The position numbers were made by a program, and so were the translations under genes. From Candidatus Fermentibacterota bacterium (GTDB taxonomy: Bacteria; JAFGKV01), in the NCBI GenBank assembly GCA_016928395.1, contig JAFGKV010000036.1, positions 51,034 through 115,033 of the forward strand: a stretch of DNA of 64,000 bases, given 5' to 3'. Positions 5,021 through 33,764 of the stretch are shown here, piece by piece. A model generated the notes under the pieces. That model searched no databases. It was not told where the DNA came from and saw only the letters and a list, made by a program, of their open reading frames with translations. Position 1 is the first letter of the stretch; every line of letters starts with the position of its first letter.

Positions 5021-6486
5021 CCGCCGCGAATCGCCCGCAGTTCGTTGATGATGATCTTGACGCCCTTTTTGGCCACGTAGCCCAGGTCGCCGAGGTTCAG
5101 GTGGCCCGACCGGAGCATGAGCTTGGCGCGCAGAAGGGATCCTCTGCTCTTGGCGTGGGCCATGTCGGCGTCGCTGACCCCTGGAAGCTGCATGACGAAG
5201 GAATCGTCGGTGAGCCACTTGGACCACGCTCCCCGGAGATCGGGCTTGATCAAGTTATGGCGCAGAGCGATATCGTAGAGCTTCGATCCGGGGTACGGCG
5301 TGGTCACCGACCAACCGATGTAGTCAAGCAGTCTGTCGTCTGCCAGGCGTGACACAAAGTCCAGCGTGGCCTGTGTCTCCCTGACACCCTCATAGCACAG
5401 GCGCCCGTGTTCCTCCCACACATTGAACAGCATGAACAGGCCGTGAACCCTGATGCCGTGATCCTTGAGAACCGAGCATGCTGCTCTGACCTGGTCCAGG
5501 GTAATGCCCTTTCCGATACCCTGAAGGGTCCGCTCGTTGCCGCTCTCTATGCCAAGATGCACATACCAGCATCCCGCCCGCGCCATAGCGGCCACCAAGT
5601 CGGGCGGGAGTGGGTGGGCTCGCACCTGGGTCTTCCAGGTCATCCCCAGGCGTCGGTCCGCCAGCGCGGAAGCGATGCCCATGGCCGCGGGTATGTTGGC
5701 ATTGAACTCGTCGGCATGGTCGAAGGTCTCGCGGATGCCAAAATCCTCGGAGAGCCGCTGAAACTCTTTCACCACATTGTCCGGAGATCGAGTTCGGACA
5801 GAGGGACGGCCGAGCTTCCAGACCATGTTGGAACAGAATGTGCACGAGAAGGGACACCCCCTGCTCAGCACCATCGAGGTCTCCGGCCTCTGCTTGGCCA
5901 GATAGAACCCCCGATAGCGGCGGAGGTCGACCAGATCGCGGGCCGGCGTGGCGACGTCGTCCAGCGGCGTGATATGGGCCCTGGGCTGGTTCACCACCGC
6001 AATCCCGTCTTGACGCCACGCGATACCGTCTATGCGTGGCGCCACCGTGCCCCACGGGGCGCCCGACAACCAGGCCTCGGTAACCTCCACCAGTGTTCTC
6101 TCGCCCTCGCCCCGTACGACAACGTCGATGCTGCCGGTGCCCAATGCCTCTTCAGGAAGGGCCGTGACGTGGGGACCACCGGCGGCTATCTTCACGTAGG
6201 GAAACGCCTCCTTGGTGCATCGAGCCATCGCGTAGGCACCCTCGGCAGCCGTTGTGTAGAAGGACAATCCCAAGAAGTCAGGCCTGAAATCCTCCACCGC
6301 TCGCCACGTGTCATCGTAACCTTCCCGGAGACCGTCGATCACGGCAACCTCCAGGTCGGGAAACGCGGCCCTTAAGGCCGATGCAAGATACAAGACTCCA
6401 AGGGGAGGGGCCATTTCCTCGCCCAGCTCGCCCAGCCGGGGGATCTTCACCGGCGGAGCGAACAGCAGCAAGAAACGTTTCGCCAC
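5017..6486 (-). CDS. B12-binding-domain radical SAM protein
   Basis: A 489-residue protein. Residues 1 to about 150 form a Rossmann-like cobalamin-binding domain of the kind fused to radical SAM enzymes. The position of the DXHXXG motif reads DGLREG (51-56), so the axial His is Leu, as in many base-off B12 radical SAM proteins. The radical SAM core begins with the 4Fe-4S motif CPFSCTFC (Cys211, 215, 218). SAM-binding elements follow, including DEFNANIP and the GIESGNERTL segment. Start: GTG preceded by GGAGG with 6-7 nt spacing. It overlaps the next sugar-transferase gene by 4 nt, so its substrate is probably a lipid or glycan in the same pathway. Hopanoid or lipid methylation is one possibility, but no substrate is visible. 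Confidence 0.88.
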   Translation of the reverse strand: MAKRFLLLFAPPVKIPRLGELGEEMAPPLGVLYLASALRAAFPDLEVAVIDGLREGYDDTWRAVEDFRPDFLGLSFYTTAAEGAYAMARCTKEAFPYVKIAAGGPHVTALPEEALGTGSIDVVVRGEGERTLVEVTEAWLSGAPWGTVAPRIDGIAWRQDGIAVVNQPRAHITPLDDVATPARDLVDLRRYRGFYLAKQRPETSMVLSRGCPFSCTFCSNMVWKLGRPSVRTRSPDNVVKEFQRLSEDFGIRETFDHADEFNANIPAAMGIASALADRRLGMTWKTQVRAHPLPPDLVAAMARAGCWYVHLGIESGNERTLQGIGKGITLDQVRAACSVLKDHGIRVHGLFMLFNVWEEHGRLCYEGVRETQATLDFVSRLADDRLLDYIGWSVTTPYPGSKLYDIALRHNLIKPDLRGAWSKWLTDDSFVMQLPGVSDADMAHAKSRGSLLRAKLMLRSGHLNLGDLGYVAKKGVKIIINELRAIRGG

Positions 6487-25572: not shown

Positions 25573-27304
25573 GATCCCTCGCTTGTGAAGGGTGAGCAAA
25601 CAGGCCTGCAATCCAGAGATTCCTGTCCTGCCCGGTGGCGGGATCCCAGAAATCGTTGACGAACCGGGCAGAGAGCACACCGGAGGAAGAAAGCTCCAAC
25701 GGCAGGCATGTCCACCCTTCGGCGTCGACTGCGTGACGCCGAATCGTTCCATTCCATGAAAGCTCCACGATCGGCCACCGGCCTACTGCGGGTTGACCGC
25801 GCACTACCAGCAGCGCGCTCCCCTCTCCCTGCAGGCGCCACTGGACAGAGCCCTCAGCGGGCAACATGACTCCTCTCTTCTCAGGGACCGCGGCGTCCAT
25901 CGCCACGGTCTGCACCTCGCTCCAGGTCTCCAGCACGTTCTCCGCCAGCGGATCCCGACCCCTACCGTCGCTCCACACCATCAGACGAGCAGCAAGCCTC
26001 TGCCGAAATCCCTCCATATCCGAGGGAGGATCCACGTACCCGATCTCATCCACTCCTTCGACGATCGAGATGAACGCATTCCGGTCTTCCCCCGGTGCGC
26101 GCAGATCATTCACGAGGGTTACCGAGCAGGTCGACTGGACATGGCGGGGCGTCAGGATCCATTCCTCAGACCATGCGGGCGTCTCTTCCGCCACCACGCC
26201 GTCGTCCAGCCGGTACACTGGCCACACACCCCGGGCGGGTTGCCCCCTCGTCAGAAGCCACGCTCCTGGCGCCAGGGGCTGGGGCAGCCGTCCCACCGCA
26301 AGGCCGTTGCGGGGTTCCTCCCACGCCTGTCTGGCCTTCCAGACGACATACCGTGACCAGCCTCTCTGGCGCCATGGTCGCAGCGAGGCCAGAGTGCAGG
26401 CCTGGGCATCCAGACCCGCATCCAATAGAAGCCGGGCCGCGTACTCCGCCGCCAATGAGTCGCGGCTCATGACCGCTGCCGTGGGCCACGACACTTCGTG
26501 AAGAGGCGGCCGCCCAGTGTGGAGGCTCGCGGCAAGTTCCCGCCAGGGAAGGCTGGCATCATTCCAGGCCGCCAGTGAATCCAAGGCTGCGGGCCGCCGA
26601 TAGACGGCTTCGGCCAGTAGCGCCCTTGCGTCAGTCCCTGCAACGGCCGATGCCGCGATTCGAAGCGCCAGACTGGCCGGCGTGGTTCCCGTACGCCTCT
26701 CAAGACTCGCCAGATCTTCCAGGGCCTCAGATGCGCCTCGGGAGTCACCACCCAACACCGCCGCATAGGATGTCCGGATAATTGCCTGCGGGTTCCGCGC
26801 ATTCAACACGGCGGCCCAGGCGTACCGTCGGAGAGTGCCGCTATCCCATCGGCCCAGCGCGTCGCCGCTGCTCAAGATGGAAGAGGCTGCGTACGCGAGC
26901 ATCCCGCAGACGGCGGCCCCTCCCAGGATGCGGGGCCGAAGATCCAGATTCGGGCGCACCAGAAGAGCCAAGGTCGCGAAAACGGCGGCCGGTTCCAGCC
27001 GCCCATCCACGAGATACCATCCTCCTCCCCCCAACAGCGCCACGATCCCCCATCCTTTGGCCGAGACCGCCATGGCTGCGATGGCCAGGGCTCGCGGTAT
27101 GACAAGCGAGGGGCAGTTCGGTACCCCCGCGATGATGCCCCCGCACAACACTATCAGTGCAAAACGGCCAACGCCCCCGCTCATTCGAAATGCCCACGCC
27201 AAGACCACCAGCATCCCGACACTCGCCACTGCGCGTTCGCCAGGAGTGGGAAGCAACCATAGGAGAGCGGCGGTGCCGCTGACGAGGAGGGCAACCGCCT
27301 TCAT
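25559..27304 (-). CDS. Membrane protein with two carbohydrate-binding-like ND...DRN repeats
   Basis: A 581-residue protein. Residues 1 to about 145 contain several hydrophobic helices, and residues 150-330 look like a helical solenoid. The C-terminal 240 residues hold an internal duplication. RGQPARGVWP (353-362) and RGQPAVGRWP (502-511) are each followed about 40 residues later by LVNDLRAPGEDRN (397-409) and FVNDFWDPATGQDRN (548-562). The ND...DRN pattern recalls the Ca-dependent carbohydrate-binding modules of families CBM36/60. It could hold the growing glycan in the periplasm or be a degenerate modifying enzyme. Its ATG overlaps the upstream stop (ATGA), and it overlaps the Wzz-like gene by 14 nt. 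Family assignment of the domain is by motif only. Confidence 0.65.
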   Translation of the reverse strand: MKAVALLVSGTAALLWLLPTPGERAVASVGMLVVLAWAFRMSGGVGRFALIVLCGGIIAGVPNCPSLVIPRALAIAAMAVSAKGWGIVALLGGGGWYLVDGRLEPAAVFATLALLVRPNLDLRPRILGGAAVCGMLAYAASSILSSGDALGRWDSGTLRRYAWAAVLNARNPQAIIRTSYAAVLGGDSRGASEALEDLASLERRTGTTPASLALRIAASAVAGTDARALLAEAVYRRPAALDSLAAWNDASLPWRELAASLHTGRPPLHEVSWPTAAVMSRDSLAAEYAARLLLDAGLDAQACTLASLRPWRQRGWSRYVVWKARQAWEEPRNGLAVGRLPQPLAPGAWLLTRGQPARGVWPVYRLDDGVVAEETPAWSEEWILTPRHVQSTCSVTLVNDLRAPGEDRNAFISIVEGVDEIGYVDPPSDMEGFRQRLAARLMVWSDGRGRDPLAENVLETWSEVQTVAMDAAVPEKRGVMLPAEGSVQWRLQGEGSALLVVRGQPAVGRWPIVELSWNGTIRRHAVDAEGWTCLPLELSSSGVLSARFVNDFWDPATGQDRNLWIAGLFAHPSQARDHARQ

Positions 27305-30102
27305 CCGTCCAGGCGACCCTTGAGCAGTTCCAGTTCATGCCGCGCGTCGGCCTGCCATCCCGGACCCGCGCGAGGATCGTCCGCCACCAGCTTGAGATGA
27401 TGCCAGGCCTCCTTGAGACGGCCGGTCTTGGCCAAGACTCTGCCTAACAACACCCGCGACCCATGGTCTCCCGGCGACCTCTCCAACGCCATCGTCGCCC
27501 ATCGGCCCGCCTCGCCCAGCCTTTCTTCCGATTCTGCCCAAGAAGCCAACTCCCACGCAGGCCAGGCCGTTTCAGGGTGACCATTCACGAGCCCTATGAG
27601 AAGACGACGGGCCTCAGTCCCCTTCCCCACCATACGAAACGCTTGGGAACGTGCTATCCCGCATGCCACCACGTCAGCGCCCAAGGATCGCGCTCTATCC
27701 AGATCTGCCAACGCCTCTGCGGCCCGCCCGGCATCCAGCAGTGTCTTCGCGCGAAGGAGCCACATCGCCGGATCCTCGGGTCGCCGTGCCAGGAGCCTGC
27801 CCGCTTCGACCAATGCTTCGGCGCTGCGGTTGCTCTGCGAAAGAATTCCCACCAGCTCCCATCGAGCCGCATCGGACCCTCCACTCTGGACCACGGCCCG
27901 TGACGCCAGAGCCACGGCCCTGGGCATGTCTCCCTCGGCCACGGCAACTTTGCTCCATAGCATGGTCTGCAGCCAGGGCTCCACGCTGGTATCGCGGGCC
28001 TCAAGCCTCACCTTTGCAGCCCCCACCAGACCACTGGCCAACATGCGCTCGATTTCCTCCTTGATGATATCCTGCGCGGACCGAACGCCCTGGTCGCGCT
28101 GACTCCATCGGCGCGCCTTCTCCCGGCTGAAGCGGGCAACCAGCTGGGGATCCTCCGATGTCCGAATTATGTAGGAGATGAGGCTATCCACCTTTGCAGA
28201 CCGGCGCCGCAGGGAGAAGAAGTCAAGGGCACCATAGGCTTGGATGGCTTCCGCCTCGGCCCAGTGGATCCCGGCCAGGGTCTCCTTGGATCGCGGACCC
28301 CTCCGCGTATGTCCCTGTATCATTGCCAGCAAAGCCCGAGCTCTCCCACCGCCACCGGGCACAACGCCCGTGGGATCGAGACGAATCGCTTCGACAAGAA
28401 GACTCTCCGCCGTGTCGGGCTGCCACCGGGCGATGTAGGGGCGGGCCTGCTCCACCAGGGCGGGCGTAAGGTAGGCGCAGCGGCCGTGAAACACTGTCGG
28501 CTCAGCAGTGCCGGTAGGACCTGGGCTCAGCACCACGGGATCCCACAGCGCGGCCAATATGGCTTTCACGGTGCCGGACGCAAGGCGTGATTCACCCATA
28601 CCACGGCTGGCCCGTTCCGCCGTGCTGGCAACGATGAGCGAGCTTAGCCACACCGCGCCGAAGGGCAGCGCCAGTATGGCCGGCCACAGCCCTCTTCTCG
28701 GCATGAGACCCTGTGCCATCCATACCCCCAGCATGACACCGCCTGCCAGCATCAGAGTCTCGGACAAAAGCGTCAAATCAGCTCCATTGTTGAGCCAGAG
28801 ATACAATAGGCCGAAACCGGCAGGATGAGGATTTTGCTCTCGGGCCAGCCTCAGGCACCACCACAGCGCCAGCACAGCCATCAGAAGAGCAGGGACAACC
28901 CCGCTTTGCTCTCCAATGTGTAGCAGGAGATGATGGGAGTGCTGCATCTGCACGCCGGGGATCGCAGAAAGCTCCGGCGGAGAAGAAACCAGATCCAGAG
29001 CCTGGGGATGCACGGGTCCCAACCCGCCTCCCCATGGAAAATGCGCCATGTAACGCAGCGCAGCCCTCCAGTGAAACTGCCGGGCCAGACAGGAAACCAG
29101 TAGGCGGTGGGGAAGCGCTGGCAAAGACACCATCACCGCCAGCGGGGTCACTATCGGAATCACGCCAAGGCCCAGTATGGCCCCCGATCGGACGCCGCGA
29201 GGCGCCACCGATGCCCCCACCACCAGAGCAAGGCACGCCAGGGCCCACACGCTCTGCGCGGCGGCCACCACCACCAACCCCGCCATGAGCACGATCCACG
29301 CTGTGATCCGATGTCTCGGCCGCAGCGAGAGATATATCAGCAGGACACCAATCGCGGTCTGGGCCGCCAGCGGGTTGCGGTTCACACCCCATCCGACGAC
29401 CGAGAGGGTTTCGTCGGTCGACACCGACGCGAGCCATCCCAGTAGCATGGGAGCCGCCAATGTCAACCCGAGCCAGCGCAGCCAGCTTTGGCTGCCCGAG
29501 AGGCTCCGCCCGCTCTGGAATCCCGCATACGCCAGGACCAAAGAGGCAACGGCCAGCGCGGCGTCGAGACGGCAAGGTGCCCTGGCCAGCTCGAAGCATA
29601 TCCAACCGGTGAATACAATGCACGCCCAGCGCAACCCACCGCTCGACCCGTCCACCAGGAGAAGGCATGCCACGGGAAAGGTCGCCCACACGTATCCAGC
29701 GGGCTGGGACGGGATTCCCACGATGAGCAGTGCCGCCAGAAGCCGTATACTCCGGGATGATCGGTGAGCACAACTCACCACCAGGCCTAAAAGAATGATG
29801 TCCGTGAGTCTCGCCCACAGCGGAGACAGCATGGACGGGTGCTGGTTCCACAAGGCCGTAGACACAACGCGGGTGTGGAAGGCTACCGCCGCGGCCAATG
29901 CCATCATGGGAATCCCGTCTGCCTCAGGGACCCGGCGGCGTAGGAAGAGCGTAGCCGCTACGGCGACACCCACAAACTGCGCGCCTGCCGGCGCCGAGGA
30001 GAACCCTGCGGCCAACGCGGACCCCGCCAGAAAGCAGGCCAGGGCTTCCACGGCCACGCCCTGCCGCAACCGCCGTGACCTCGTGTGGATGTCAGACGTC
30101 AT
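27301..30102 (-). CDS. O-antigen ligase-like membrane protein with C-terminal TPR domain
   Basis: A 933-residue two-part protein. The N-terminal ~540 residues are a 12-14 helix Wzy/WaaL-type unit, with GVNRNPLAAQTAIGVLLIYLS and the periplasmic loop ending MQHSHHLLLHIGEQSGVVPAL, the usual H-S-H-x-x-L-x-x-x-x-E-x-G signature. The last ~390 residues are TPR-like repeats (for example LVEAGRLLARRPEDPAMWLLRA and SEERLGEAGRWATMALERSPGD). TPR-bearing ligases often act on proteins or very long polymers. The start was set at the ATG with GGAG 6 nt upstream; an in-frame GTG 45 nt earlier is possible. It begins 57 nt after the TonB receptor gene and overlaps the next gene by 4 nt. Confidence 0.8.
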   Translation of the reverse strand: MTSDIHTRSRRLRQGVAVEALACFLAGSALAAGFSSAPAGAQFVGVAVAATLFLRRRVPEADGIPMMALAAAVAFHTRVVSTALWNQHPSMLSPLWARLTDIILLGLVVSCAHRSSRSIRLLAALLIVGIPSQPAGYVWATFPVACLLLVDGSSGGLRWACIVFTGWICFELARAPCRLDAALAVASLVLAYAGFQSGRSLSGSQSWLRWLGLTLAAPMLLGWLASVSTDETLSVVGWGVNRNPLAAQTAIGVLLIYLSLRPRHRITAWIVLMAGLVVVAAAQSVWALACLALVVGASVAPRGVRSGAILGLGVIPIVTPLAVMVSLPALPHRLLVSCLARQFHWRAALRYMAHFPWGGGLGPVHPQALDLVSSPPELSAIPGVQMQHSHHLLLHIGEQSGVVPALLMAVLALWWCLRLAREQNPHPAGFGLLYLWLNNGADLTLLSETLMLAGGVMLGVWMAQGLMPRRGLWPAILALPFGAVWLSSLIVASTAERASRGMGESRLASGTVKAILAALWDPVVLSPGPTGTAEPTVFHGRCAYLTPALVEQARPYIARWQPDTAESLLVEAIRLDPTGVVPGGGGRARALLAMIQGHTRRGPRSKETLAGIHWAEAEAIQAYGALDFFSLRRRSAKVDSLISYIIRTSEDPQLVARFSREKARRWSQRDQGVRSAQDIIKEEIERMLASGLVGAAKVRLEARDTSVEPWLQTMLWSKVAVAEGDMPRAVALASRAVVQSGGSDAARWELVGILSQSNRSAEALVEAGRLLARRPEDPAMWLLRAKTLLDAGRAAEALADLDRARSLGADVVACGIARSQAFRMVGKGTEARRLLIGLVNGHPETAWPAWELASWAESEERLGEAGRWATMALERSPGDHGSRVLLGRVLAKTGRLKEAWHHLKLVADDPRAGPGWQADARHELELLKGRLDG

Positions 30103-30159
30103 GGAGTGCTCCGAAACTGCCGTGGGCGCCAGCCTCAACCGGGCCACCGGCGGCGGGAA

Positions 30160-32340
30160 TCAGAACTGGTAGAAGACCCTTGTTCGCCAGCGTCGGCCGG
30201 GCTCGGGGTATCCCCAGCGATCAAAACCTTTCTGGTCGAACAGATTCTCCCCTGCGACGCCGAAGAGCAAGGTTCGCAGTAGGTGCACCTGGGCACCCGC
30301 ACCGACCTGGAACGCCGCATTGGACGAGCGGCGATTGGCGCGATCCACAAACACCTCGCCCCGGGCCCGGGCCTCCATGCTCATACTCCACCCATTCCGG
30401 ATGTGACTTACCGCTGTCGCACTCATGGTCCACACAGGCCAGCCTGGTAATCGATTACCGCGATAGTAGGGGGCCTGAGAGCGATCCTCCGTGCGCTGGA
30501 CGGCGCCTGCGAAATGCGCGATCAGCGCTCCGTGACCACGCAGTGTCGCGGCAAGCTCAAGGCCCCTCATGCGGGCCTCGCCAATGTTCTCCGGCATGAC
30601 GACCTTGGGAGATCTTAGCCAGAACTGAATCAGGTCGGTCACCGTCTTGTGATACAAGGCCAGGCGCAGGGTCTCGCCAGAGGACGCCAGGACCGCCTCG
30701 AACTGCAGGCTTCGCTCAGGTGTGAGGCCAGGGTTGCCTCGGATGCTTCCTGCATTGCCCAGCAGCTCGATCAAGGCGGGAGGACGCCCTTGGGCCGAGG
30801 CCGATACCAGGAGGGAACCGTACCCGGTCAACTCAAGTTCGCATGCCGCGCGGCCTGTCTTCAGCTCATGAAGCACACTCTGGTCTTCTCCCCAATTCCG
30901 AAAGCCTAGCACGCTTCCCTCGGCCCGCCAGCGTACCGGTAGCCCCGGGCACCAGGTGAGGCCAAGACCCTCGCTCAGGGTAACCCTCCCCTGGCTTTGC
31001 CGGTGCAAGCCCGGAGTCTCTGCGACAATTCCCTCAACTCTCATCTCCACACGGGCATCGGGCCGGATCGCCCCCTCCTCCCGGGCGCCGTACAAACTGA
31101 CTCCGCCTCCGCGGCTCCGATTGATGACGGAACCTGCCATGTGGGAAAGCTCCGCTTCCGGATCATCCACTTCACTGCACGTCCATTGGGCGAATCCCAG
31201 CAGGGATCCTTTCCAACCCCGAGCAACCGGACGCACATGCCGAAGCGCCAATCGCAGGGCCTGGCTCGTATGGCGCGCGTACCGGACGGGATCGGCCCCG
31301 GTCCCCGGGACCCCCTCCCGGCGGTCCGACGCAAGCGAGGTAAGCACCCAACGGGGGCCGTCCTCAAGCCCTATGGCCGACTTCACCAGGAGATTGAGGG
31401 TCTCGACCCTGCTGTTAGCGCGAACACGAAGGGTATCGTCACTATGGTTGAGAGGCGTGGCATTGTCGTCCATGTAGCCAAAGTCATTGTCTTGCACCAG
31501 GGCCTCCAGGCCCGTCCATATCCACCCGTCCGGCCACGGCACGGTGACTCCGAAACCGGCATCTCGTCGCCCCAGACTGCCAACACCCAGCCTCGCCCGA
31601 AGCCGTTCTTGGGGGCGCGGCGATATGGTCTCCAGGGCCAGGGCCCCTCCGAGGGCGCCACCCCCCAAAGAGAGGGGAGCCCACCCCTGATACACGATGA
31701 GTTGCTCCAGAACGCCCGGGAGAATCCCGCTCATGTCGGCCCCACCAAGGCGGGCGTCGGATAGGGGTATCCCGTCCAGCCAAGCCTCAGTCCCGGCGGA
31801 TCCGGAGCCCCGCAGTCCTACGAAAACGCCCCCACCGACCTTGTCGACCTCAACTCCCGCAATTCGACCCAGAGAGGAGGCCATGCTCTCGTCGTCCGCC
31901 GATGTGGAGCATACCACGGCGGCATGACACCATACTCCGGAAACTTCCCGGCTCTCCACGATCTGCACGGCGGGCAAGGGGAAGGGCGCCCGGGTGAGCA
32001 GCACACTGATGGTGTCAGACGCAGCCAGGATAGTATCAACAGCAGAATAGCCGGTCCTGACAATCCTCACAGGGACGGGCTGATCCAAAGCGGTAACCCA
32101 CGCATTCCCGGAGGAATCCGTCGTCGCGACGATGCCCTGGCCTGCCTCGATCAGGGCCATGGCCACGGGGGCGTGGGACTCACTCTCCCGCACCTGTATC
32201 AGTACCACGCGGGGCTCTGACAAGGCCCAGGTCGCTGCCACGGCCAGGCTACACCCCAGAGCACCCCATCGCCATACCCTCGACGCATTCGGGAGCCGGA
32301 GACGACTCGCGAAGCGGACGGGTAGGAACACAGATCGCAT
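30160..32340 (-). CDS. TonB-dependent receptor, probable cobalamin (BtuB-like) transporter
   Basis: A 726-residue outer-membrane receptor. After an N-terminal signal (about 1-41) comes a short carboxypeptidase-regulatory-like beta domain (about 45-120). A plug domain follows (about 120-235; IAGVEVDKVGGGVFVGLRGSGSAGTEAWLDGIPLSD in outline, including the LRGSGS and WLDGIP plug hallmarks). The rest is a beta-barrel ending in the aromatic-terminal RVFYQF, as outer-membrane barrels do. It begins 9 nt after the propeller gene, and both lie behind a cobalamin riboswitch. B12 or another corrinoid is therefore the best guess for the cargo. No BtuCDF ABC transporter genes are present in the window. Barrel identity is firm; substrate is inferred from the riboswitch. 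Confidence 0.88.
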   Translation of the reverse strand: MRSVFLPVRFASRLRLPNASRVWRWGALGCSLAVAATWALSEPRVVLIQVRESESHAPVAMALIEAGQGIVATTDSSGNAWVTALDQPVPVRIVRTGYSAVDTILAASDTISVLLTRAPFPLPAVQIVESREVSGVWCHAAVVCSTSADDESMASSLGRIAGVEVDKVGGGVFVGLRGSGSAGTEAWLDGIPLSDARLGGADMSGILPGVLEQLIVYQGWAPLSLGGGALGGALALETISPRPQERLRARLGVGSLGRRDAGFGVTVPWPDGWIWTGLEALVQDNDFGYMDDNATPLNHSDDTLRVRANSRVETLNLLVKSAIGLEDGPRWVLTSLASDRREGVPGTGADPVRYARHTSQALRLALRHVRPVARGWKGSLLGFAQWTCSEVDDPEAELSHMAGSVINRSRGGGVSLYGAREEGAIRPDARVEMRVEGIVAETPGLHRQSQGRVTLSEGLGLTWCPGLPVRWRAEGSVLGFRNWGEDQSVLHELKTGRAACELELTGYGSLLVSASAQGRPPALIELLGNAGSIRGNPGLTPERSLQFEAVLASSGETLRLALYHKTVTDLIQFWLRSPKVVMPENIGEARMRGLELAATLRGHGALIAHFAGAVQRTEDRSQAPYYRGNRLPGWPVWTMSATAVSHIRNGWSMSMEARARGEVFVDRANRRSSNAAFQVGAGAQVHLLRTLLFGVAGENLFDQKGFDRWGYPEPGRRWRTRVFYQF

Positions 32341-32349
32341 TGCGGTGCG

Positions 32350-33699
32350 CTAGTGGATGACCAACGGTGTCGTCCAATGGATGCCGGGGCCGCTGACCCG
32401 CACCACATAGGTGCCGGTCGAAAGCTCTCCACAGCATTCTCTGAGGTCAAAGCTGGCACTCAGGCTGTTCAGGGTCGCCCGAACCATGCGCCGTCCCGCG
32501 TGGTCATACAGGGCGAATGTCGCGTCTGCCGACGGTCGGTTCAGGCAAAGATGAATACGGCCCAAAGTCGGGTTGGGCCACACCCGTGCAATACTGTTGA
32601 CCGAAGGGCCGATGGCTGTGGCCGGTGTCACTACCGCACCACACATCGGGGGAAGACCAGTTGACACGGGGCCGCACACCGTCAGCCCAGTGGAAGCATC
32701 GATAAGCAGCACCCCTGCCTGGGATGGATCCGCCCACGTTCCTTGATCAGCCACATACAGGATGCCTTCGTGCACCAGCATATCAGGGATGTACCCGCCG
32801 CTAGGGCCGGGGAGCGGCAGACCTAAAATCCCAGTGGCGAGATCGCAGGGCACCACCGCATTGCTCCAATCGGGATAGCTGACCGCGAGGTACGCTGTCT
32901 GCCCAAATGCCGCGATGCCGCCCACATTGGCCCCCACGGCCTGCTCGTCCATGATCACCGTAACGTGGTTCAAGGCCAGATCAACGGCGACCACGGCACC
33001 GTCATCGTACGTGTTCCAGTTACCTGTGCACGGGAGGTACGCGGTTGATCCCACCTGCGTCACGGCGGTGGGATTGGCCGCGGGCAGCCACAACGGATCC
33101 GCCTCAGGAGTTGCCGGATCCATGTCAACCGGTTGCCCCGAGTAGGCATCTAGGACGGCCAGACACCCCGGCCCCGCCGGGTCCATCATCGGGGTGTTCC
33201 GGTCAAGGCGTTGGCAGACAATGTAAACCCGCTCACCATGTCGGATGATGCGCGTGGCCTCCGGGATGCCGTCGGCATCGGCGAAAGGGGAAAGATCCAC
33301 CGTATCCACGATCTCCCCGGTGATCGGGTTCACGATGAGCATCCACGACCTCTCGAACAGGGTGATGAACGCTCGGTCTGGAGCGACGGTGAGCATGTCT
33401 TGGGGGTTGGTGCCATTGCCCGTGGAGTACTGGTGAACGACGCTGGCAAGCCCCGTGGCATGCAACACCGTGACATTGTCATATCCGAGCCTGCCCACCA
33501 CGAAGACATACCCTTCCCCGCTGCGGACCACCGCATCTCCTGGAACGGGCACGGGGACTTCCCCGGCAGCGCATTCACCCGCGGTTTGGGCTGCAAGACC
33601 ACCGGTGGAGAAATCGGTAGTCACCCACACGATATCCGAGGCGTGTGCCGCCAAAGTGAAGGGAAGAATACAGCCGGTGAGGAGTCGGACTGGGCGCAC
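32350..33699 (-). CDS. YncE/BtuG-like beta-propeller with T9SS sorting domain
   Basis: A 449-residue exported protein with a signal peptide (about 1-20), then a beta-propeller (about 22-360). Repeated blade phrases are GYVFVVGRLGYDNVTVL, RSWMLIVNPITGEIV, GCLAVLDAYSGQPV, DDGAVVAVDLALNHV and AGVLLIDASTGLTV. The C-terminus (372-449) is a type A T9SS sorting domain: VWPNPTLGRIHL, FALYDHAGRRMV and STGTYVVRVSG. In Bacteroides, the surface propeller BtuG captures B12 for BtuB. This protein has the same fold and genetic position but a T9SS signal instead of a lipid anchor. The GTG start follows AGGAGG by 5 nt and is enclosed in a hairpin downstream of the riboswitch. B12 binding is inferred. Confidence 0.85.
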   Translation of the reverse strand: MRPVRLLTGCILPFTLAAHASDIVWVTTDFSTGGLAAQTAGECAAGEVPVPVPGDAVVRSGEGYVFVVGRLGYDNVTVLHATGLASVVHQYSTGNGTNPQDMLTVAPDRAFITLFERSWMLIVNPITGEIVDTVDLSPFADADGIPEATRIIRHGERVYIVCQRLDRNTPMMDPAGPGCLAVLDAYSGQPVDMDPATPEADPLWLPAANPTAVTQVGSTAYLPCTGNWNTYDDGAVVAVDLALNHVTVIMDEQAVGANVGGIAAFGQTAYLAVSYPDWSNAVVPCDLATGILGLPLPGPSGGYIPDMLVHEGILYVADQGTWADPSQAGVLLIDASTGLTVCGPVSTGLPPMCGAVVTPATAIGPSVNSIARVWPNPTLGRIHLCLNRPSADATFALYDHAGRRMVRATLNSLSASFDLRECCGELSTGTYVVRVSGPGIHWTTPLVIH

Positions 33700-33764
33700 G
33701 TGAACCTCCTGTGGCGCGAGGAGCCAAGTTTTCCCGAGGAGGGATCAGGAGGAGCCCACGTGCG
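33695..33764 (-). promoter_or_regulatory. SD/start-sequestering hairpin, riboswitch expression platform
   Basis: On the minus strand, the segment at 33746-33764 can pair with 33695-33711. CGCACGTG pairs with CACGTGCG (8 bp, covering the GTG start), and CCTCCTG pairs with CAGGAGG (7 bp, covering the Shine-Dalgarno), with a small internal loop between them. The structure would hide both the ribosome site and the start codon of the propeller gene. It sits directly downstream of the aptamer, so control is probably translational. Confidence 0.72.

Follow-up and report, generated by a model that had tools for sequence, protein, structure and literature searches.

A BtuG-like propeller with a type IX secretion tail behind a cobalamin riboswitch in a Candidatus Fermentibacterota bacterium

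The propeller gene and its surroundings

The window (the whole stretch of 64,000 nucleotides analysed here, from a Candidatus Fermentibacterota bacterium) contains on its reverse strand a 449-residue open reading frame (32350–33699) with a GTG start, behind a Shine-Dalgarno sequence, AGGAGGT, read at 33704–33710 of the same strand. The encoded protein has three parts. By inspection, its N-terminus, MRPVRLLTGCILPFTLAAHA followed by SD, has the look of a signal peptidase I substrate, with a predicted signal peptide at residues 1–20 (33640–33699, reverse strand) and the cleavage site between AHA and SD. Residues 21–356 (32632–33639, reverse strand) form a seven-bladed beta-propeller according to the AlphaFold2 model and its VIA-align comparison. 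The C-terminal residues 373–447 (32359–32583, reverse strand) match the type A sorting domain of the type IX secretion system (T9SS), TIGR04183, at 23.7 bits (cut-off 23) and at 27.4 bits in the genome-wide search; the match to PF18962 (20.3 against a cut-off of 27) is marginal. The reading frame thus has the composition proposed in the first-pass annotation, in which a propeller stands between a signal peptide and a type A T9SS domain, with the predicted signal peptide recognized by inspection and the tail just above the TIGR04183 cut-off. The motif LTGC at residues 7–10 was considered as a lipobox and rejected, because too few residues precede it and because the counterpart in L022 has a signal peptide free of cysteine; inspection of the window protein found no lipobox or other lipoprotein export signal.

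Upstream of the propeller gene lies a cobalamin riboswitch aptamer (RF00174; 33812–33991, reverse strand; cmscan 103.1 bits, E 1.1e-24), the sole match to this model found in the 4.79-Mb assembly. Downstream, starting 9 nucleotides past the propeller stop codon, is the gene for a 726-residue BtuB-like TonB-dependent receptor (30160–32340, reverse strand; PF00593, 58.4 bits; PF07715, 30.8 bits). The order originally read from this DNA, with the propeller gene first behind the riboswitch and a TonB receptor directly behind it, is therefore borne out. A promoter and terminator scan found nothing. The gene that follows (27301–30147, reverse strand) encodes an O-antigen-ligase-like/TPR protein, starts 12 nucleotides past the receptor stop codon, and is possibly co-transcribed. 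We excluded it from the module because an opposite-strand reading frame separates its counterpart from the receptor in L013; this neighbourhood is not kept in G002, a genome of the same family (f1) as the host.

Three genomes of the host's phylum were present in our genome set, and the genome of the same genus, G001 (82% complete), gave no match to the propeller family. In the host, the BtuC, BtuD, and BtuF genes are clustered on another contig, and 32 B12-binding domains in the genome indicate corrinoid use; one of these domains (PF02310) lies within the window at 6082–6411 of the reverse strand, in a 706-residue reading frame.

Homology to BtuG and the ligand face

When the window protein alone was compared with the PDB, BtuG structures were the only matches, but with an E-value of 1.7. 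A profile of six sequences brought nine BtuG entries to the lead (E 7e-5 to 3e-4), and with a profile of 48 relatives the first ten places were all taken by BtuG (E 3e-10 to 3e-5), followed by eukaryotic RACK1 (8e-5), two more BtuG entries (2e-4), and YncE (9e-4). The AlphaFold2 model, with a pLDDT of about 95 across the propeller, led to the same ranking: the top nine rows of the VIA-align search were BtuG (Z 30.1–31.6, rmsd 2.9–3.4 over 301–307 residues), the best match being BtuG2 (8bai, Z 31.6), and below them came an archaeal S-layer propeller (Z 29.6), unrelated seven-bladed propellers (Z of 28 or less), and YncE (Z 25.9). Since other propellers reach Z-scores of 26–28, the fold match by itself is only mildly specific. 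A structural match to BtuG or YncE had been named as a check on the original proposal, and it was found, with BtuG ahead of YncE. In the family searches, BtuG came first and YncE lower by profile, and the window protein had no match to Pfam DUF5074 (PF16819). Only 3 of the 48 relatives matched DUF5074, and in a survey of 386 genomes its matches were mostly weak; the sole strong one, in G392, lies in a receptor-lipoprotein-BtuF-like operon.

The receptor ranks in a similar way. The first 11 PDB matches of its family profile are all of the B12-receptor type (8blw_A, E 4e-54), and PqqU comes after BtuB. The window receptor itself scores 35–42 bits against the BtuB equivalog models TIGR01779 and NF007926, far below their cut-offs of 600–836.

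Within the family, conservation is concentrated in the B-C and D-A loops of one face of the modelled propeller (1.85 versus 1.16 bits, per-loop P 0.001). This face is also the more acidic one family-wide (median charge −9 versus −5; more negative in 41 of the 48 relatives), and in the window protein itself both faces are equally charged, at −10 each. BtuG2 attracts B12 electrostatically (PMC10404256), and an acidic conserved face is as expected from this. The residues of the upper BtuG2 pocket are mostly replaced: Trp194 corresponds to Gln163, Trp272 to Asn258, Tyr316 to Pro305, and Tyr335 to Trp322, so that one of four aromatics is kept, in a comparison that covers these four named residues; BtuG2 also makes 13 hydrogen bonds from blades 1–4. 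Because BtuG3 already lacks an equivalent of Trp272, turnover of residues in the upper pocket is normal.

The window propeller and BtuG of Bacteroides are homologous but far diverged. We file the former as BtuG-like rather than BtuG, because it lacks the lipid anchor, the DUF5074 match, and three of the four pocket aromatics. There is a good probability that it works like BtuG.

Relatives and their anchors across phyla

Using protein patterns alone, without the riboswitch as a criterion, we gathered 51 loci from species genomes of Fermentibacteria, Latescibacterota, Handelsmanbacteria, Eisenbacteria, Krumholzibacteriota, UBP15, Binatota (Binatia), Myxococcota, and others. A cobalamin riboswitch lies upstream on the same strand in all 40 loci with uncut upstream DNA (in the remaining 11, the contig ends within the receptor or the propeller gene), and a receptor adjoins the propeller in 46 of the 51; many of these loci are near-duplicates, so the effective numbers are smaller. 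The conservation among the uncut relatives excludes placement behind the riboswitch by chance, and the survey of related genomes that had been proposed shows riboswitch, receptor, and propeller arranged together in many phyla. When 386 genomes were scanned with a profile in a second, separate search, the family was detected in 74 of them at E 1e-10, where the weaker matches may be other propellers. It added 19 loci, 14 of them with a riboswitch; of the others, L120 has a receptor upstream, L124 is cut, L125 and L126 match the profile most weakly, and L121 resembles a class represented by L067 and L069. This divergent class (L067, L069, and L121) has no recognizable TonB receptor near the propeller; in L067 and L069 the propeller directly follows the riboswitch and is itself followed by a second lipoprotein (Big_2-like), and in L121 an unassigned upstream reading frame has a similar C-terminus.

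Several loci contain more than one propeller. A 761-residue protein behind a riboswitch and receptor (L047:4675-6960), matched by the profile over about 700 residues, was read as tandem propellers. Two neighbouring propeller genes stand beside the receptor in one cobalamin-riboswitch locus (L017:2984-5198, reverse strand), and two adjacent propeller genes likewise lie by a receptor in G180:C138 and G314:C167.

The breadth of this arrangement bears on what the pair captures. The propeller and receptor could take up another ligand, such as a siderophore, PQQ, or a metal chelate, with the riboswitch reflecting cobalt or some other link; the structural neighbours XusB and YncE, the position of PqqU next after BtuB, and the lost pocket aromatics fit this reading. 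However, BtuG and BtuB rank first for the two proteins, the riboswitch does not vary from phylum to phylum, ABC-transporter genes resembling BtuF, BtuC, and BtuD were seen on inspection of reading frames in the same locus in L015–L017, and L131 has the order receptor-propeller-BtuF-like. We therefore regard a different ligand as improbable. The claim that this locus combines a BtuG-like fold with the genetic position of BtuG is supported by the fold and profile ranks together with the conserved riboswitch-receptor-propeller layout.

The propeller is the constant part among relatives, whereas its attachment varies between a T9SS tail, a lipobox, and a dockerin module (classes assigned by inspection and profile counts). 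Besides the window protein, 17 loci from 16 other genomes have a T9SS/FlgD-like tail. In six Latescibacterota loci (L027, L028, L030, L040, L041, and L045), the propeller is followed at its C-terminus by a dockerin-like pair of EF-hands, and L050–L052, which come from Binatia and a delta genome related to them, have their EF-hand/dockerin-like module at the opposite, N-terminal end; Dockerin_1 was matched by five members of the family. Lipoboxes occur in Myxococcota and UBP15 and in part of the Eisenbacteria and Latescibacterota. Cohesin domains were detected in eight of nine dockerin genomes (five of the six Latescibacterota genomes with the C-terminal module) and also in some other genomes; none were found in the host genome. 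The propeller tree requires at least six changes of anchor. Good support exists for swaps within the Fermentibacteria-Latescibacterota clade, where T9SS tail and dockerin replace each other, and within Eisenbacteria, where T9SS tail and lipobox do so.

Export of the window propeller by the T9SS is likely, because the host encodes SprA/Sov (463 bits against a cut-off of 200), about 89 proteins with TIGR04183 tails, and PorU-like peptidases, which are divergent (best score 218 bits against a cut-off of 420). These peptidases are located at G000:C87:32084-35053 (reverse strand) and on contigs C59, C327, and C262; G060, from Fermentibacteria, has a similar set. Each of the 17 genomes whose propeller has a T9SS tail, the host included, encodes an SprA that scores above the cut-off. 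SprA is likewise found in all six genomes with a C-terminal dockerin, in none of the three with an N-terminal one, and in 4 of the 25 with a lipoprotein or other form (the fragmented G071 counted as positive). If the tail were instead a FlgD/Ig-like domain with no role in export, the propeller would be periplasmic; the marginal Pfam score and the FlgD_ig matches in 12 of the 48 relatives lean this way. Yet TIGR04183 exceeds its cut-off here as one of 89 such matches genome-wide, and SprA, found in every genome with the tail, is missing from the three N-terminal dockerin genomes and from 21 of the 25 others (Fisher P 6e-7, uncorrected for kinship), which makes a periplasmic location very improbable.

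A further question is whether an exported propeller stays on the cell. It might be secreted untethered and act as a soluble, haemophore-like corrinoid shuttle between the medium and the receptor. A type A tail need not lead to attachment, the sortase candidates of the host are divergent, and one propeller in a riboswitch locus (L015:7885-9027, reverse strand, in G044) has an ordinary signal peptide, shows no recognizable anchor, and is possibly soluble. On the other hand, homologues in the same position are equipped with lipoboxes or dockerin modules, both of which serve as tethers, and BtuG acts as a lid bound to its receptor (PMC10404256). We regard a free shuttle as rather unlikely and favour a surface-held propeller.

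A putative corrinoid-uptake module and its place among known systems

Taken together, these observations make it probable that the propeller and receptor constitute a corrinoid-uptake module, in which a T9SS-exported, surface-held BtuG homologue hands corrinoids to a BtuB-like receptor; corrinoid binding, surface attachment, and lid-like handover are the steps that we infer for the window propeller. In the proposed sequence, low cellular cobalamin would lead to production of the pair. The propeller would be exported by Sec, moved over the outer membrane by the T9SS via its C-terminal domain, and retained at or near the cell surface, where its acidic conserved loop face would catch corrinoids and pass them to the receptor. 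The receptor would import them by means of TonB, and BtuF and BtuCD would complete import. The N-terminal lipid anchor of BtuG would thus have been replaced by a C-terminal T9SS signal. In BtuG2, an N-terminal linker serves as the hinge of the lid (PMC10404256); because the first and last strands of the propeller share blade 1, a C-terminal tether would be expected to exit near the site of this hinge.

The discoverers of BtuG described it as confined to Bacteroidetes and as having a lipoprotein export signal, and they raised the question of why no other phylum had added it (PMC6143338). We found no report of a T9SS-borne BtuG in the literature searched, to which subscription papers and preprints did not belong; in that literature, a single paper named both BtuG and type IX secretion, each twice and on another subject, and a T9SS review made no mention of cobalamin, vitamin, or B12. 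The spread of BtuG-like propellers beyond Bacteroidetes and the swaps of their anchors are the more interesting part of the finding. The balance of evidence leans towards BtuG-type surface corrinoid capture being an old and widespread Gram-negative module rather than a Bacteroidetes invention, with its attachment swapped repeatedly between T9SS, lipid, and C- or N-terminal dockerin, so that a TonB importer may have its lid put in place by the T9SS. Homologues occur in many phyla, and the record titles of several relatives name soil, sediment, groundwater, and lake samples; competition in the gut therefore cannot be the sole driver. If confirmed, the T9SS would gain a role in TonB-dependent nutrient import, the natural series of anchor swaps would offer a test of which tethers allow a lid to pass its ligand on to a transporter, and the annotation of B12 scavenging would extend to many uncultured lineages.

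Among known systems, the BtuB TonB-dependent cobalamin receptors share with the window receptor a plug and barrel, riboswitch control, and the top profile rank, but their equivalog cut-offs are not reached here. YncE of E. coli is also a seven-bladed propeller, and its gene adjoins that of the TonB receptor PqqU; it ranks below BtuG in both sequence and fold, and has another ligand and regulation. BtuG1, BtuG2, and BtuG3 of Bacteroides thetaiotaomicron (PDB 8bmy, 8bai, 8blw, and 8p97; PMC6143338, PMC10404256) have in common with the window protein the seven-bladed propeller, the cobalamin-riboswitch operon, and the BtuB partner; the window protein differs in its identity of only about 17%, its T9SS C-terminal domain in place of a lipid anchor, its mostly replaced pocket aromatics, and its non-Bacteroidota host. 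XusB, a xenosiderophore-binding lipoprotein of Bacteroides fragilis (PDB 9hqk), is a propeller from a Bacteroides lipoprotein system as well (Foldseek E 2e-10), but it matches the window protein less well than BtuG does, binds a siderophore, and is lipid-anchored, whereas the window protein has no lipobox. Finally, the DUF4465/BtuJ B12 binders (PMC13398666) are likewise accessory surface B12 binders in riboswitch loci of several clades, but they belong to a different domain family.
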